Source: a virus
IMG/VR virus record: IMGVR_UViG_3300047494_000017
Span: 1-40,938 of that record
Strand: one strand, 5' to 3'
Length of the DNA stretch: 40,938 nt
Under the pieces are notes generated by a model that did not search any database, was not told the origin of the DNA, and saw only the letters and a program-made list of their open reading frames with translations. Position 1 is the stretch's first letter. Each line of letters begins with the position of its first letter. A program made the translations under genes and the position numbers. Shown in pieces: positions 6,702 through 40,938 of the stretch.

Positions 6702-6722
6702 CGTTACCCTGTTTACGTTTTA

Positions 6723-6786
6723 CCATAGACACGTCGTCCCTTCCACAAAACGACGTGTTTCGGCTTATCAAGCCTCATCAGTATGG
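6723..6786 (-). ncRNA. Type I hammerhead ribozyme (HHR I-A)
   Basis: Minus strand. Stem I 5' CCATA (6786-6782), core CTGATGA (6781-6775), stem II GGCTT-GAT-AAGCC (6774-6762), core GAAA (6761-6758), stem III CACGTCG (6757-6751), 14-nt loop, CGACGTG (6736-6730), T (6729) pairing with the last A of GAAA, C17 (6728), then stem I 3' TATGG (6727-6723). All conserved core positions are present and all three helices pair perfectly. Cleavage is expected between 6728 and 6727, just before the 6701 gene. Open stem I makes it type I. Confidence 0.9.
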
Positions 6787-6807
6787 TTTTGGACGGTGTT
6801 TAGTCAT

Positions 6808-6989: not shown

Positions 6990-7038
6990 GCTACAGATGC
7001 CCGTAGGGTTTCGGCTCATTAAGCCTCGTCAGTGTAGC
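6990..7038 (-). ncRNA. Hammerhead-like motif, probably degenerate (HHR I-B)
   Basis: Minus strand. Stem I GCTACA (7038-7033) with TGTAGC (6995-6990), core CTGACGA (7032-7026), stem II GGCT/AGCC (7025-7013), GAAA (7012-7009), and a UC cleavage pair (6997-6996). Stem III is only CCC/GGG with a 3-nt loop and leaves two unpaired bases (CA) before the cleavage U. The architecture matches HHR I-A, but the short bulged stem III may weaken or abolish cutting. It starts one base after the stop codon of the 61-aa gene. Confidence 0.55.
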
Positions 7039-7039
7039 T

Positions 7040-7225
7040 TTAGTGGGATGCAAAACAAGGCCTATGTTTACGGGTTAAATCGCCATATCGCGAAGATGTA
7101 CAGTTAACTATTTCAATTTCATCGGATAAGTTTAAATGGTTCACGACCCAGTGGTAAGCGGTATCGTAATCTTTAAACATTTTTTCATAAAATAAATCTT
7201 GTTTATTATTAAATACTGAAAACAT
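7040..7225 (-). CDS. Unknown early protein, 61 aa
   Basis: Preceded by the repeated leader (AAAGGACCTTCCACA then AATG). Aromatic and acidic N-terminal half (FNNKQDLFYEKMFKDYDTAYHWVV), basic C-terminus. No family recognised. Its stop codon is followed after one base by the HHR I-B motif. Confidence 0.6.
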   Translation of the reverse strand: MFSVFNNKQDLFYEKMFKDYDTAYHWVVNHLNLSDEIEIVNCTSSRYGDLTRKHRPCFASH

Positions 7226-7264: not shown

Positions 7265-7501
7265 CTAGTAACCCAGCCATTCAAAGATGTCACGGGTTTT
7301 AAAGGTGTTCATACTGGTGGCGTTGAGACAGAATCCACCGTTGTATGCGTAGCAACGACACTCTTGGAGGTAATTGTCAATCGTGAAACCATGGGCTACG
7401 CATAGTTTATCGGCTTGATGGCGGGTGATTAGCTCGCCCCATCTATCTAATGCTTCTTGGCGAATGTCGCGATTCTCTGTTAACGCATCTATAAGGCTCA
7501 T
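7265..7501 (-). CDS. Unknown early protein, 78 aa
   Basis: First gene of the leftward small-gene operon, started by ATG 7501 after the repeated leader. Contains four Cys (34, 48, 50, 58), CRCY near residue 50 among them; they could bind metal, but the spacing is not a standard zinc ribbon. No family recognised. Confidence 0.6.
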   Translation of the reverse strand: MSLIDALTENRDIRQEALDRWGELITRHQADKLCVAHGFTIDNYLQECRCYAYNGGFCLNATSMNTFKTRDIFEWLGY

Positions 7502-8348: not shown

Positions 8349-8464
8349 AAATCACACCGTGTATACCGACGTATAGTAAAGGTATAAGGCAAATCACACC
8401 GTGTATACCGACGTATAGTAAAGGTATAAGGCAAAACAAACCGTGTATACTCAAGCTATAAGGC
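8349..8464. repeat. 42-bp tandem repeat, iteron-like
   Basis: Two identical 42-bp units (8349-8390, 8391-8432) and a third, shorter diverged unit (8433-8464). Each contains CCGTGTATAC and a TATAAGGC end; the first two also hold CGTATAG. A related CCACGTATAC lies at 8483-8492. Placed between early and late genes, they could be operators or origin iterons. Open frames across them translate the repeat and are not credible genes. Confidence 0.75.
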
Positions 8465-8528
8465 AAAAATTTATAAATTTAACCACGTATACTAATGTAC
8501 GTTTATATTGGTTCTACCTAGTTTCTCC

Positions 8529-36326: not shown

Positions 36327-38423
36327 TCATTTCTTATACCTCTTTCCTCGCCATCCTTCGGCCGACAAAGGAAACCCATCGGCCCAATCAGGCAATGTCG
36401 TAAACAGTTTGTTAAACTCTTCAACTGAACCGAAGCCTTCGGGTACCTCGGACCCTGCTTCATCGTGTACGCTAATTACTACAGGGTACCCGTTAGCCTC
36501 TAACTGAAGCATTCCTTCTGCTAGTAAATCCCTACAAACTGCTTGAGTTATATTTTCCGCCCATAAGCCGCCATAGGGTGATTGTTCCAGAAATACCGCA
36601 ATGCCGCCGCTTGTACCCACAAAAGTTAATGCGTAAGGCTTACGTTTATTCTTGGTCGCGTAAACCTTTGGTTTAAAATACGCTAGGCATCGGCCGCTCG
36701 GTAATTTACAGTACAAAAATGCGCCGTGCGTAAAGAATATAACCTTACCTACAGGTTGAGGTCTCCCTAATAGAACGGCGTCTAGCGCGGCCGCTTCTAA
36801 AGCGTACCAAAATCGAACAACCTTTTGGTTTGCTTTACGCCACCGTTGTTTGATGATATCGGCGGCTAAGCCCTCTGTACGGGTCAGAGGAAGCGCTTTA
36901 TCAGAGAGCCTAGCCAAAGACGCATCGTAGGCATTTTCGGCACTCTCTCGCTCATTCTGGCTAGCCGTAGGCCATATAATATCGTAAACCGGTTCCAAGT
37001 CAATTCCGTATCCTTTAGCCATCGTACCAAATGCTCCCATTGCGCCCTGGTACCCCAAAGCCAGTACGGCGACTTTGCCGATTTGCCGTTCAAAGGGATG
37101 GTCCTTTTTATTAACCGGATACCCAAAAATTTCAGAGGCTTGTACATTATAGACGTCTTTACCTGTGCGAAACGCTTCTAACGTTTCTTTATCGTCTACA
37201 AGCCACGCTAAACCGCGTGCTTCAACTGAAGCGTAATCAGAAACAATCAGGTCATACCCTTTTTTTGGGATTATCATTCCCCGTAAAGAAGCAGATAGCG
37301 CCTTTAAGACATCTGGGTAAAGTAGCTCGAACATCTCATAATCGTACTTTAGCATTATTTTGATACAGTAATCCGAATCGATATCGCCACGCGGCATATT
37401 CTGAGGTTGAACCCGGCGACCGCCCCATCGACCAGTGGAAGCGGCGTGGTAAGCCAAAAGGTCTAAAACCCTACCTCGACCGTCTGAACCTAGTTTCATC
37501 GCCATATATTTAGCTGTACTGCTCTTTCCCAACTGTTGCCTTATGCCTAGGACTTTCCGAGCTAGGTCCGGGAGATCCTTTTGAGCCAATGTCTTAGCGA
37601 CTGTAACGGCATCTAAAGAGGGCAAAGATACTCCGAGAGTAAGGAGAAACTCTCGCATTTTGGCGATAGCGGTATGGCTCTTGCAATATCCGTTAGTGAG
37701 TTCGACTAATTCAGCTTTCAGCTTAGTGGTGTATATTTCGATGTAATCTAACGCAATGTCGACCGCGTGAACATCAATCTGGACGCCGCGCTGATTTATG
37801 CGTTGGTCCATAAACCAAATTTCTTGTTCTTTAGGCGTTAAATCTCGAAGCTCTTTATCGACGGCCCGTTCCGCTTCAACGTCTAGCATATTGTACTGAT
37901 AGAGGGTTTCGTAATCTTTTTGACTCTCAAAATACTTGTCTTTATTGAATTTTGACTCTTTACGTGGCTTTGAAAGCTTTAGCATTGTGCGACTTGCCGA
38001 TGCGTCTTTTATGGTCTCTAGCCCTAAGGCCCTTCCCGAGTCAAATAAACCCGCCGGTAAAGCGTGAGCTACGCATTTAGCAAGGGTACAACGCCACCGT
38101 TTAATGGGGATAGGCGCAAAGCCGTATCGTTTGACCATAATATGACGCCATATTGCTTGTTCAAACCCGGCATTGTGAGCAATAAATAAAGCGCTCTCCA
38201 ATTGATTTACCGCCAAAAGCTCATATAGCACATTAATGTTTGACCGATTTTTAACTTCGGCGTGTTTCACTAATTCAGGTTGTTTAATGAGCCTCACCGG
38301 CCCATCGTCCACACAGTATGCTAAACACATAATCTGTGTGGACGGGTCCGACGCGTAAATATCCGCACCACACTTCTTAAGGTCGATTTCAGAGCGAGTC
38401 TCAAAGTCGATGTGTATGCGCAT
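36327..38423 (-). CDS. Family A DNA polymerase with 3'-5' exonuclease
   Basis: 698 aa. The exonuclease domain has DFETRSE (residues 5-11) and FIAHNAGFEQAIW near 78-90. The polymerase has motif A VSDYASVEARGLAW near 395, a motif B region RQIGKVAVLALGYQGAMGAFG near 444-464, and motif C VISVHDEAGSEVP near 648-660. Replicates the phage genome. It lacks the acidic Leu tail seen on its partners and instead ends GWRGKRYKK, strongly basic. Confidence 0.95.
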   Translation of the reverse strand: MRIHIDFETRSEIDLKKCGADIYASDPSTQIMCLAYCVDDGPVRLIKQPELVKHAEVKNRSNINVLYELLAVNQLESALFIAHNAGFEQAIWRHIMVKRYGFAPIPIKRWRCTLAKCVAHALPAGLFDSGRALGLETIKDASASRTMLKLSKPRKESKFNKDKYFESQKDYETLYQYNMLDVEAERAVDKELRDLTPKEQEIWFMDQRINQRGVQIDVHAVDIALDYIEIYTTKLKAELVELTNGYCKSHTAIAKMREFLLTLGVSLPSLDAVTVAKTLAQKDLPDLARKVLGIRQQLGKSSTAKYMAMKLGSDGRGRVLDLLAYHAASTGRWGGRRVQPQNMPRGDIDSDYCIKIMLKYDYEMFELLYPDVLKALSASLRGMIIPKKGYDLIVSDYASVEARGLAWLVDDKETLEAFRTGKDVYNVQASEIFGYPVNKKDHPFERQIGKVAVLALGYQGAMGAFGTMAKGYGIDLEPVYDIIWPTASQNERESAENAYDASLARLSDKALPLTRTEGLAADIIKQRWRKANQKVVRFWYALEAAALDAVLLGRPQPVGKVIFFTHGAFLYCKLPSGRCLAYFKPKVYATKNKRKPYALTFVGTSGGIAVFLEQSPYGGLWAENITQAVCRDLLAEGMLQLEANGYPVVISVHDEAGSEVPEGFGSVEEFNKLFTTLPDWADGFPLSAEGWRGKRYKK

Positions 38424-38429
38424 TTTAAG

Positions 38430-38774
38430 TTATCTTTCGATTCTTTTGGCGAGGGTTACACCGCGCATATTCTGGTCTTTCGGATTAGCAACCGCTATGA
38501 TACTAGGCTCATCCGGCACTTGCGTATTATAATTATCCAAGGGGGTTTGAGTGCCACGATATTCATTCCAATGTTCCATAAAGAATTTAGCGGAACGTTT
38601 GTCGTCAAGCTTAATTCCGTTATGCGTTCCATAGAATATTTCGACTTCAAACGTTTCATTGGCATTTCGGTTGTTTTTGACAAAACGCACTTCGGCTAAA
38701 TTAATGTCCATTCCGCACGTTTGAGAACCGACCGCGCCAGTTTCAACCCGTATCCAATAGGGCTCTTTAGTCAT
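38430..38774 (-). CDS. Unknown protein in the replication operon, 114 aa
   Basis: I start at ATG 38774 (MTKEPYWIRVETG) with GGAG 9 nt upstream; the frame also has a TTG two codons earlier. Alternating strands (YWIRVETG, NLAEVRFVKN, FEVEIFYG) and a basic end (GVTLAKRIER). Preceded directly by the ribozyme at 38797. No family recognised; position suggests a replication accessory. Confidence 0.6.
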   Translation of the reverse strand: MTKEPYWIRVETGAVGSQTCGMDINLAEVRFVKNNRNANETFEVEIFYGTHNGIKLDDKRSAKFFMEHWNEYRGTQTPLDNYNTQVPDEPSIIAVANPKDQNMRGVTLAKRIER

Positions 38775-38796: not shown

Positions 38797-38872
38797 GGGC
38801 CTGTCTCCTCAGTATCGGTAGGCCATTTCCGATAAACACCTCTCCTTGTCCAAGTCAGAGAGGTGTTTCGAC
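38797..38872 (-). ncRNA. Type II hammerhead ribozyme (HHR II-B)
   Basis: Minus strand: stem II 3' GTC (38872-38870), GAAA (38869-38866), stem III CACCTCTC (38865-38858)/GAGAGGTG (38844-38837), U16.1 (38836), H17 = U (38835), stem I TATCGG (38834-38829)/CCGATA (38818-38813), core CTGAGGA (38812-38806), stem II 5' GAC (38805-38803). Loop I GGCCT (38824-38820) can pair with AGGCC (38802-38798), a pseudoknot. Cleavage expected between 38835 and 38834. The first base overlaps the last base of the upstream gene's TAG stop. Open stem II makes it type II. Confidence 0.88.
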
Positions 38873-39528
38873 TATTGTTGAGGTTCTTCTGTTTCAGTAG
38901 CGGCATCCGTTGGCGATGTATTGGGCGGCGAGTCTATCCCATTCTCTACATCGGTTTCGGTTGATGGTTCTAAAGGCGTCTGTGATGGGGGATTGTCCGT
39001 AGATGATTCGCTCGGAGAATGTGTCCAGCCAATAATTTCCCCCTGCGCGTTTGGGTCCGGTGCAGGCATTTGAAAGGTATAAGTATCTACGGGGTCATTA
39101 GGTGCGGCAGATGTAGAGTTTGGAGTAGGTAACGGTGGTACTGTTACTGAGACTGGGTCGGGATGAATAGGCGCGTGACCTCCGCTAGCGCGAGAAGCCG
39201 CTAAGGATGCCTCTTCATTAGGAACAGAATCGGCAATCGACAAGCTACCCGGAACGCGATTGGCATCTGGTTTGGAAAGAGAGGCCCCATATTGCGCGAA
39301 CTGTTCAGCCGTAACAAATCCATTTGCTTTAAGAAATGGGTCACGTTGCAAAATAACCTCTTTTGCAATTTGAAACGCAATACGGGGAGCCTGTTCTAGA
39401 GGGTCAAGGTCGCCATTAGCGAGTAACCCCGCTAAAGCCATCCCCGCGTAATGGTCAAACAACGCCATATCTTGAATGCTGTCTAACACTTTGACTCGTT
39501 CAACTTCGTTTTCATTAGTATCGAACAT
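38872..39528 (-). CDS. Unknown protein with disordered acidic tail, 218 aa, between two ribozymes
   Basis: Residues 1-85 look folded and helical (VKVLDSIQDMALFDHYAGMALAGLLANGDL...RIAFQIAKEVILQRDPFL). The remaining 130 are Pro/Ser/Thr/Asp/Glu-rich and disordered. AGGAG 8 nt before ATG 39528. Ribozymes lie directly before and after it, so its message should be cut free on both sides. No family recognised. Confidence 0.65.
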   Translation of the reverse strand: MFDTNENEVERVKVLDSIQDMALFDHYAGMALAGLLANGDLDPLEQAPRIAFQIAKEVILQRDPFLKANGFVTAEQFAQYGASLSKPDANRVPGSLSIADSVPNEEASLAASRASGGHAPIHPDPVSVTVPPLPTPNSTSAAPNDPVDTYTFQMPAPDPNAQGEIIGWTHSPSESSTDNPPSQTPLEPSTETDVENGIDSPPNTSPTDAATETEEPQQ

Positions 39529-39548
39529 TTTAGAATCTCCTATTCATT

Positions 39549-39614
39549 GGGCCTATCTCATCAGGGAGTGGAAGCCATTCACTCCGACCGGGGTAATATG
39601 CCCCCGGTTTCGAT
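39549..39614 (-). ncRNA. Type II hammerhead ribozyme (HHR II-A)
   Basis: Minus strand: stem II 3' ATC (39614-39612), GAAA (39611-39608), stem III CCGGGG (39607-39602)/CCCCGG (39593-39588), U16.1 (39587), C17 (39586), stem I GGAGTG (39585-39580)/CACTCC (39570-39565), core CTGATGA (39564-39558), stem II 5' GAT (39557-39555). Loop I GGCTT (39576-39572) can pair with AGGCC (39554-39550) as a pseudoknot with one G-U pair. Cleavage expected between 39586 and 39585. It begins on the base after the DUF2815 stop codon. Confidence 0.88.
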
Positions 39615-40169
39615 TTACAAATCGTCAAACAATGCAGCGTTACCGGCGGCAGGTTTCGCAGGCCCTAGACCGGCAAACGCTTCCTCGGCGGTTGAACGAG
39701 AGATTAAAGGTTCGCCATCGGAATGTTTCATCAAGTTGTTTAAACCAAATGATATACCCCGATTACCCTTTTTGTCGAATGCATAAGCGTTAACTTCTGC
39801 AACAGCATAGCATCCTGCGTAAAACTCGCCCGGATTGATAATTTTTTGCAAATTTGCATCAACTAAGCCGGGTTGTTGGTTAAACGATTTCGCTGCAACA
39901 ACGATTTTATCACGGTATTCCGGGCGTTTAACCAAGTCGAATTCGTCTTCGGTCCCTTGGCGAAATGGTGATTTTAACTTTCCACCGTCGGGGAATTTCG
40001 CGATGGCGGCGGCTTTGGCTATGCGACGCATTTCACTCAAATCGGCATCAGAATCGAAAATCATCGTAACCGCCCAGTATTCGTCCCCACTTTCGTTTTT
40101 TGCTTTCGTGAAGATATATGGAAAACTCACCCTAAAAATAGGGGTGATAACGGATTCGTTTTTTGGCAT
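39615..40169 (-). CDS. DUF2815 family protein, probable ssDNA-binding protein
   Basis: 184 aa. FRVSFPYIFTKAKNESGDEYWAVTMIFD near residues 8-35 and GEFYAGCYAVAEVNAYAFDKKGNRGISFGLNNLMK near 113-147 are the DUF2815 pattern; this family is regarded as an OB-fold, ssDNA-binding-like phage protein paired with DUF2800. The C-terminus AALFDDL is an acidic-hydrophobic tip like those on SSB-type proteins. AAAGGAC before ATG 40169. Confidence 0.85.
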   Translation of the reverse strand: MPKNESVITPIFRVSFPYIFTKAKNESGDEYWAVTMIFDSDADLSEMRRIAKAAAIAKFPDGGKLKSPFRQGTEDEFDLVKRPEYRDKIVVAAKSFNQQPGLVDANLQKIINPGEFYAGCYAVAEVNAYAFDKKGNRGISFGLNNLMKHSDGEPLISRSTAEEAFAGLGPAKPAAGNAALFDDL

Positions 40170-40199: not shown

Positions 40200-40938
40200 T
40201 TACAAGTCGAGAAACGCTTCTACACTGTCGGGTAAACGCGCTTCTCTATCGTCCTCTACCGGAACCAATGTCTTTCCGGTATCAGGCTTTTCACATAATT
40301 GGTCTATGAGCGCTTGTTGACGCTTACCGACCAATTTTTCCATCTGTGCGGGGCTACGCAATTTAGGTGGCATATAAATTTCATTCCCGAAATCAAACTC
40401 GAAAGTTTGCGCAACGGCAATTTCATTTATCCATCGACGGTTCCCACGCTTACCCACAAGCTTATAACCAGGAATTTCAACACCCGTTTCGGCTATAGAG
40501 TGCGCGTAGGCCACTACCGAATCGGCCCAATCTCGAAGTATAATGGCATTTTTGAGGATGTGCCCAATAAATTCAGGGTCCATCTCTTGAGGTTTAGGGA
40601 GTTGAAACGGCTTTGCGACGTCCTTAAACGCCAGCCGTGCCAATCCGGTTGCCTCGTCGCGCTTTTCCGGGCAAATCGCTTTCGCATTGCAGAATTTACA
40701 ATGGGGGCCTAATTTTAAGGTAGTATCCCCCTCGCGTACTCGTGCTATAGCGGCGCGTAGTTCCTCCATATGAGCCAATAGCTCGATGGTAGAAAGCCAC
40801 CATTGCCGCACAGGGCCATCTGGGTGTTTTGCGCGGGGTTGTACAATGCGTAGATTGATACCCGTTATAGCAACGCGCTCTTGTGGTGTAAGCGAAAAGT
40901 ACGCACCCAGGGCGTAATATAGAAGCTGTTTATTGTAG
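40200..40938 (-). CDS. DUF2800 family protein, C-terminal part (continues from base 628 through the join)
   Basis: The last 203 codons (40811-40203) plus stop; bases 40812-40936 repeat the start of the window. GPHCKFCNAKAICPEKRDEA carries three closely spaced Cys that, with the N-terminal Cys region, could bind an iron-sulfur cluster or zinc as in AddB/Cas4-like nucleases. Ends VEAFLDL. Sits 30 bp upstream of DUF2815. Confidence 0.85.
   Translation of the reverse strand, partial: YNKQLLYYALGAYFSLTPQERVAITGINLRIVQPRAKHPDGPVRQWWLSTIELLAHMEELRAAIARVREGDTTLKLGPHCKFCNAKAICPEKRDEATGLARLAFKDVAKPFQLPKPQEMDPEFIGHILKNAIILRDWADSVVAYAHSIAETGVEIPGYKLVGKRGNRRWINEIAVAQTFEFDFGNEIYMPPKLRSPAQMEKLVGKRQQALIDQLCEKPDTGKTLVPVEDDREARLPDSVEAFLDL
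40811..40936. repeat. Right copy of end-to-end direct repeat
   Basis: Identical to 1-126. See the left copy. Confidence 0.9.

Follow-up and report, generated by a model that had tools for sequence, protein, structure and literature searches.

The replication operon of the phage record analysed here (the window, 40,938 bp) carries a predicted type II hammerhead ribozyme (HHR), II-B, at the junction between a 218-aa gene and the next open reading frame (ORF). Its core, its stems, a pseudoknot, covariation among its relatives and a match to an independent covariance model strongly support its being a genuine type II hammerhead. II-B probably acts in cis at this cistron junction, cutting the polycistronic RNA between 38835 and 38834. 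More generally, arrays of type II HHRs in phages probably cut a long message into single-gene messages. The kind itself is widespread among phages and has been known since 2011; what is added here is a general rule for the placement of these HHRs at stop codons, together with their arrays in cultured phages.

Structure of II-B

Direct reading of the sequence and a structural scanner agree with a preliminary description in which a complete type II HHR had been recognized on the minus strand from 38872 to 38803 (Table 1). Stems I and III are closed by loops. Stem II, formed by GUC (38872–38870) and GAC (38805–38803), has 3 bp and is open to the outside, which makes the element type II. The core reads CTGAGGA, in agreement with CUGANGA, and GAAA, and U16.1–U17 provide the UH dinucleotide before the cut. 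All the elements first described are present (GAAA, CTGAGGA, stem III, the 6-bp stem I and UU before the cut). The 8 bp originally assigned to stem III all form, and the A15.1–U16.1 pair adds one more to give 9 bp, which RNAfold lengthens to 11 bp in the 5' product. II-B also overlaps the 218-aa gene exactly at its stop codon, the G of UAG being the first base of stem II. A further statement, that the helices of II-B differ entirely from those of the neighbouring HHR II-A within a common fold, is true of stems I and III, but the two HHRs have stem II and the AGGCC tail almost in common.

A pseudoknot can be added to that description: loop I, GGCCU (38824–38820), can pair with the 3' tail, AGGCC (38802–38798). 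Such a pairing between loop I and the 3' tail is a hallmark of natural type II HHRs, common though not universal. II-A, with its body at 39614–39555 and a tail extending to 39550, has the corresponding pair GGCUU/AGGCC.

Table 1. Positions of the hammerheads, their parts and the surrounding genes in the window (all on the minus strand).
Feature	Position	Details	Basis
II-B, type II hammerhead including pseudoknot tail	38798..38872		sequence, scanner, Rfam, covariance model
II-B core GAA	38869-38867
II-B stem III	38866-38858/38844-38836
II-B H17	38835	U
II-B stem I	38834-38829/38818-38813
II-B core CTGAGGA	38812-38806
II-B predicted cleavage site	38834..38835	after U17 at 38835; 5'-OH product from 38834	scanner
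UAG stop of the 218-aa gene	38872..38874	its G opens stem II	sequence
218-aa ORF between the two HHRs	38872..39528	ATG 39528, Shine-Dalgarno upstream	ORF list
II-A, type II hammerhead including tail	39550..39614		scanner, Rfam, covariance model
Predicted excised RNA	38835..39585	751 nt	computed from cut sites
Enc34-type / gp2.5-like ssDNA-binding protein gene	39615..40169	184 aa, upstream of II-A
Downstream ORF	38430..38774	ATG 38774, 114 aa (listed as 116 aa from TTG 38780)
Family A DNA polymerase gene	36327..38423	downstream of the HHR-bearing segment
Type I hammerhead	6722..6787	among small early ORFs; CTGATGA, GAAA, 5-bp stem II, 12-bp stem III, 6-bp stem I

Comparison with chance and with known models

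Run over the whole 41-kb window, a strict scanner requiring the core CTGANGA plus GAAA, UH and three stems returned three motifs, two of type II and one of type I. The two type II motifs score 46.5 and 43.0, compared with a single type II match, scoring 25.5, when the window was shuffled 200 times (first-order Markov). We also built a covariance model, R1, from 57 HHRs found exclusively on contigs of other phages, with the window absent from the training set. In R1, II-B scores 59.9 bits (E 4.9e-15) and II-A 54.6 bits (E 1.6e-13), and the next match in the window reaches only 8.8 bits.

The Rfam model RF02276 (Hammerhead_II) aligns both HHRs of the window end to end, at scores that fall short of its gathering threshold, 37 (31.5 bits, E 0.0009 for II-B; 34.9 bits, E 7e-6 for II-A). 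II-B is peripheral to this model; many related HHRs pass, and the cut-off does not define the fold. With the type II HHRs of RF02276 and of the survey by Perreault et al. (PMC3088659), II-B shares the permuted architecture, the short, open stem II, the intact core and the pseudoknot between loop I and the tail. It differs from those of RF02276 in its score, its long stem III loop, U17 instead of C17 and G7 instead of U7.

Covariation in relatives

Scanning IMG/VR for TCGAAAC, a gap and CTGANGAGAYAGGCC yielded 107 stretches. Together with the window these hold 177 type II HHRs, or 151 after removal of near-duplicates, nearly all of them from IMG/VR. Because the scan required TCGAAAC and GAYAGGCC, the identities of stem II and the tail are partly selected; the positions of stops and starts were no search criterion. 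A scan of genome_contigs returned only three loci, two of them in one Brevibacillus genome, and these were left out of the placement statistics because the pattern used there contained TAG. At loci L031, L034, L084 and L113, type II arrays are accompanied on the same strand by well-formed type III hammerhead candidates.

Across 57 relatives, 94.9% of the pair cells are standard and 18 of the 20 pairs change on both sides, with 209 double-change cells compared with 49 in shuffles. Shifting the pair partners drops pairing to 32–39% and abolishes the signal. All five pseudoknot pairs covary. The pseudoknot was examined further by swapping tails among HHRs with other tails from the same loci, so that the search had no part in selecting the tail. 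In 42 of 56 HHRs, loop I can form at least five Watson–Crick pairs with its own tail, compared with a mean of 4.7 (maximum 10) after the swap. The fit to a ribozyme's own tail is thus far above that to swapped tails, which indicates that the pseudoknot is specific to each ribozyme.

Gene context and the predicted excised RNA

The ends of the record are identical over 126 bases (1–126 and 40811–40936), within the gene for a DUF2800 exonuclease, indicating a circular or terminally redundant molecule whose minus-strand genes form one block across the junction. The order in this block is early small ORFs, primase/helicase, SNF2 helicase, DUF2800 exonuclease, Enc34-type ssDNA-binding protein (SSB), the 218-aa ORF, the 116-aa ORF and DNA polymerase A. 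II-A lies directly 3' of the UAA stop (39617–39615) of the SSB gene. On the other side of II-B, the Shine-Dalgarno sequence of the downstream ORF, GGAG, occupies 38787–38784, 10 nt past the pseudoknot strand. II-A and II-B form a cluster on one strand that brackets the 218-aa gene, in a window that also contains phage replication and terminase genes. The 218-aa protein has no Pfam or PHROGs match and no relative among the viral contigs searched.

II-A is predicted to cut between 39586 (C17) and 39585, and the released RNA would start at 39585. The fragment of approximately 750 nt from 39585 to 38835 proposed in the preliminary description computes to 751 nt from the two predicted cuts, and the 5'-OH product of II-B is predicted to start at 38834, as had been proposed. 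In this RNA the stem I hairpin at the 5'-OH end is followed by the 218-aa ORF and then by the stem III hairpin with the 2',3'-cyclic phosphate end. For the proposed excision of the message, the geometry is exact, and the same stop and start positions recur in relatives from many contigs; that the RNA is cut here is something we infer.

In the nearest relatives (about 25–39% protein identity), the order exonuclease, SSB, variable genes, polymerase is kept. No type II HHR was found at the SSB and DNA polymerase loci of relatives with 30–40% identity, so that the window pair could not be followed into close relatives. Since relatives of the flanking genes do without an HHR at the same place, the element is dispensable for this operon in general.

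The type I hammerhead among the small early ORFs is on the same strand as II-A and II-B and gives a sub-threshold match to RF03152 (RAGATH-1 hammerhead; 31.6 bits, E 0.003). At about 6995–7045 (minus strand) there is a type I hammerhead-like remnant or variant, GCTACA-CTGACGA-GGCTTAATGAGCC-GAAACCCTACGGGCATC-TGTAGC, in which a CA bulge adjoins the cut site and which has no Rfam match. A tail similar to that of the remnant, GTAGCAGTAAAAGAAATGAAAGGACCTTCCACAA, precedes the early ORF at 7225, where the rest of the motif is absent. The small early ORFs at 7501, 7225 and 6965 (minus strand) have a common ribosome-binding leader, GAAAGGACCTTCCACA(A)ATG, resembling a duplicated expression unit. Short direct repeats, GCCTTATACCTTTACTATACGTCGGTATACACGGTGTGATT, at about 8370–8470 (minus strand) are intergenic between divergent gene blocks and could mark an origin or regulatory region.

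Placement at stop codons

For every HHR with enough flanking sequence (n = 145), we tallied each stop codon that terminates an open frame of 80 codons or more. Stops peak at 2 nt (45) and 3 nt (20) before GAAA, together accounting for 65 of the 145 HHRs, compared with 0.225 per position farther away; 96 stops fall 0–7 nt before GAAA. Those at 2 nt are nearly always UAG (UAG-UC-GAAA), so that two bases come from the stop codon, the A preferred ahead of stem II and the G of stem II itself, and those at 3 nt are UAA or UGA ahead of a full GUC. Shine-Dalgarno-led starts of frames of at least 70 codons cluster 16–32 nt past stem II (92, compared with 0.4 per position). The same stop and start layout is thus shown, at the level of sequence, to recur in unrelated phages, and it suggests that both cleavage products must stay translatable mRNAs.

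Whole records contain as many as 13 type II HHRs. In the 77-kb phage with 13, UAG lies exactly 2 nt away in six of the nine array members found by the strict scanner. The genes flanking HHRs belong to many families, mostly unknown; those that can be named include DNA-metabolism, anti-restriction and RusA genes, and a search for a common function found none.

Arrays in cultured Streptomyces phages

A blast search of isolate phages with the 64-nt HHR consensus matched 32 records, of which 30 are Streptomyces phages. Among three HHR-rich loci compared with phage isolates by blastn, two gave no match and the third led to Streptomyces phages. R1 matches lie in the right arm of Tefunt (L123; eight), Diane (L124; nine) and R4 (L126; nine, one of them weak). 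Most of the HHRs of Tefunt and Diane fill gaps between deposited coding sequences, with a Shine-Dalgarno-led start right after. Like II-A and II-B, the HHRs in these three arrays are found by R1 and stand mostly at gene junctions in one genome arm; they differ in their GC-rich stems, a stem II that is mostly GGC/GCC, other pseudoknot sequences and their eight or nine copies per phage.

Many of the Streptomyces phage HHRs pass Rfam's own threshold, and Rfam detects most of them, so they can be found with existing models. No ribozyme annotation was present in the record stretches examined, and a literature search returned no paper joining Streptomyces phages to hammerheads, save one unrelated match. 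R1 gave no type II match in phage PaP3, for which Perreault et al. named an HHR.

Discussion

Perreault et al. described type II HHRs flanking single genes of phages and prophages in 2011, with clustered examples in Clostridium scindens, Azorhizobium caulinodans and the ardA locus of Agrobacterium tumefaciens; cleavage was shown for three clustered arrays in vitro and for one in E. coli, and the pseudoknot was needed for fast cleavage (PMC3088659). The window resembles those prophage clusters in having several HHRs on one strand that bracket single genes, with variable gene identity and with mRNA processing as the proposed role; its neighbours differ in being SSB and DNA polymerase genes. The 2011 survey left the natural function of phage HHRs unproven (PMC3088659), and our literature search found no later answer. 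The term "stop codon" is absent from the main text of that paper, and the exact placement of stop and Shine-Dalgarno sequences is not mentioned there (PMC3088659).

Cutting of the mRNA gene by gene is the likeliest role that we infer. II-B would cut the polycistronic RNA during or soon after transcription. Neither gene would be damaged, because II-B extends from within the stop codon to a point short of the next Shine-Dalgarno sequence: the upstream RNA would retain its stop codon and terminate in the stem III hairpin, bearing a 2',3'-cyclic phosphate, and the downstream RNA would begin inside the stem I hairpin with a 5'-OH and keep its own Shine-Dalgarno sequence. II-A and II-B together would free the 751-nt RNA as a single-gene mRNA.

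One contender, to which we give somewhat less than an equal chance, is that the HHRs do cut but that gene separation as such is not their main job, which would instead be to tailor RNA ends, with the 3' hairpin and cyclic phosphate block and the 5'-OH hairpin protecting or destabilizing a particular transcript. The upstream products of both HHRs end in stable 3'-terminal hairpins (-15.9 and -15.0 kcal/mol, z about -3), and the 5'-OH product of II-A begins directly in a 6-bp hairpin. RiboJ, which derives from a plant satellite RNA, provides a precedent. This engineered HHR insulator raises transcript abundance about 2-fold; as predicted for the window, an HHR in a 5' untranslated region yields a processed 5'-OH transcript with a hairpin beside the Shine-Dalgarno sequence (PMC6206723). 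It differs in being synthetic and in being placed after promoters, not between cistrons. By analogy, RiboJ suggests stabilization of the downstream piece. End tailoring alone, however, leaves the exact placement at successive array junctions unexplained, as well as the presence of HHRs on unrelated genes. Within gene-by-gene cutting, a more speculative addition is that the hairpins and chemical ends may alter the stability of the pieces, in the way that RiboJ raises expression.

It is also possible, if doubtful, that the HHRs mark exchangeable gene cassettes, in which a unit of HHR, gene and HHR brings its own RNA processing and accessory genes can be swapped without disturbing their neighbours. 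In the gene order kept by relatives, the 218-aa and 116-aa genes with their HHRs occupy the variable slot, with no relative there, a position that, judged from gene order, is compatible with an accessory cassette. The neighbours of HHRs come from many families, some of them early or accessory (anti-restriction proteins, RusA). Against this, the HHR-flanked genes of R4-like phages could equally be ordinary early genes.

II-B itself could be a decaying or slow hammerhead whose fold is still recognizable but which cleaves poorly, so that II-A would be the one working copy, perhaps alongside the type I hammerhead. We regard this as unlikely, although II-B is atypical: U17 occurs in one of the 151 HHRs (II-B itself) and G7 in three, and it scores under Rfam's gathering threshold. 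Cleavage is generally poorer with non-GUC triplets (PMC2238771). By nearest-neighbour energies, a competing nested fold free of the pseudoknot uses the pseudoknot strands and breaks stem I at -30.5 kcal/mol; the native nested fold (-21.6 kcal/mol) plus the pseudoknot helix (-7.5 kcal/mol) is about as stable. Conversely, all the invariant core positions, the stems and the pseudoknot are intact, II-B scores above II-A in the independent model, and U17 conforms to the NUH rule. Given U17, G7 and the competing fold, efficient cutting is less certain at II-B than at II-A; of the two, we expect II-A to cut more dependably, with II-B slower or conditional.

Finally, a reading of the hairpins as transcription terminators or other structural RNA with an incidental likeness to hammerheads, suggested by the strong stem III hairpin directly after a stop codon, is highly improbable and was rejected on sequence grounds, since a terminator scan finds none at either HHR, there is no U-run, the core and pseudoknot are conserved with covariation and shuffled sequences almost never yield such a motif.

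The geometry of II-B also invites speculation about translation: a ribosome terminating at UAG would cover the GAAA strand and could thereby tie cleavage to translation. Extending this, we tentatively propose that many phages may use type II HHRs fused to stop codons as a standard punctuation between genes. With the stop as part of stem II, such HHRs would cut each junction of the early operon without harm to the genes, and their folding would compete with the terminating ribosome, so that cutting would be tied to translation of the upstream gene.

If gene-by-gene cutting is confirmed, RNA catalysts would process the mRNA of these phages at many gene junctions without any nuclease. Through the placement rule and the arrays of eight or nine copies in each of the cultured phages R4, Tefunt and Diane, the function of phage HHRs becomes directly testable.
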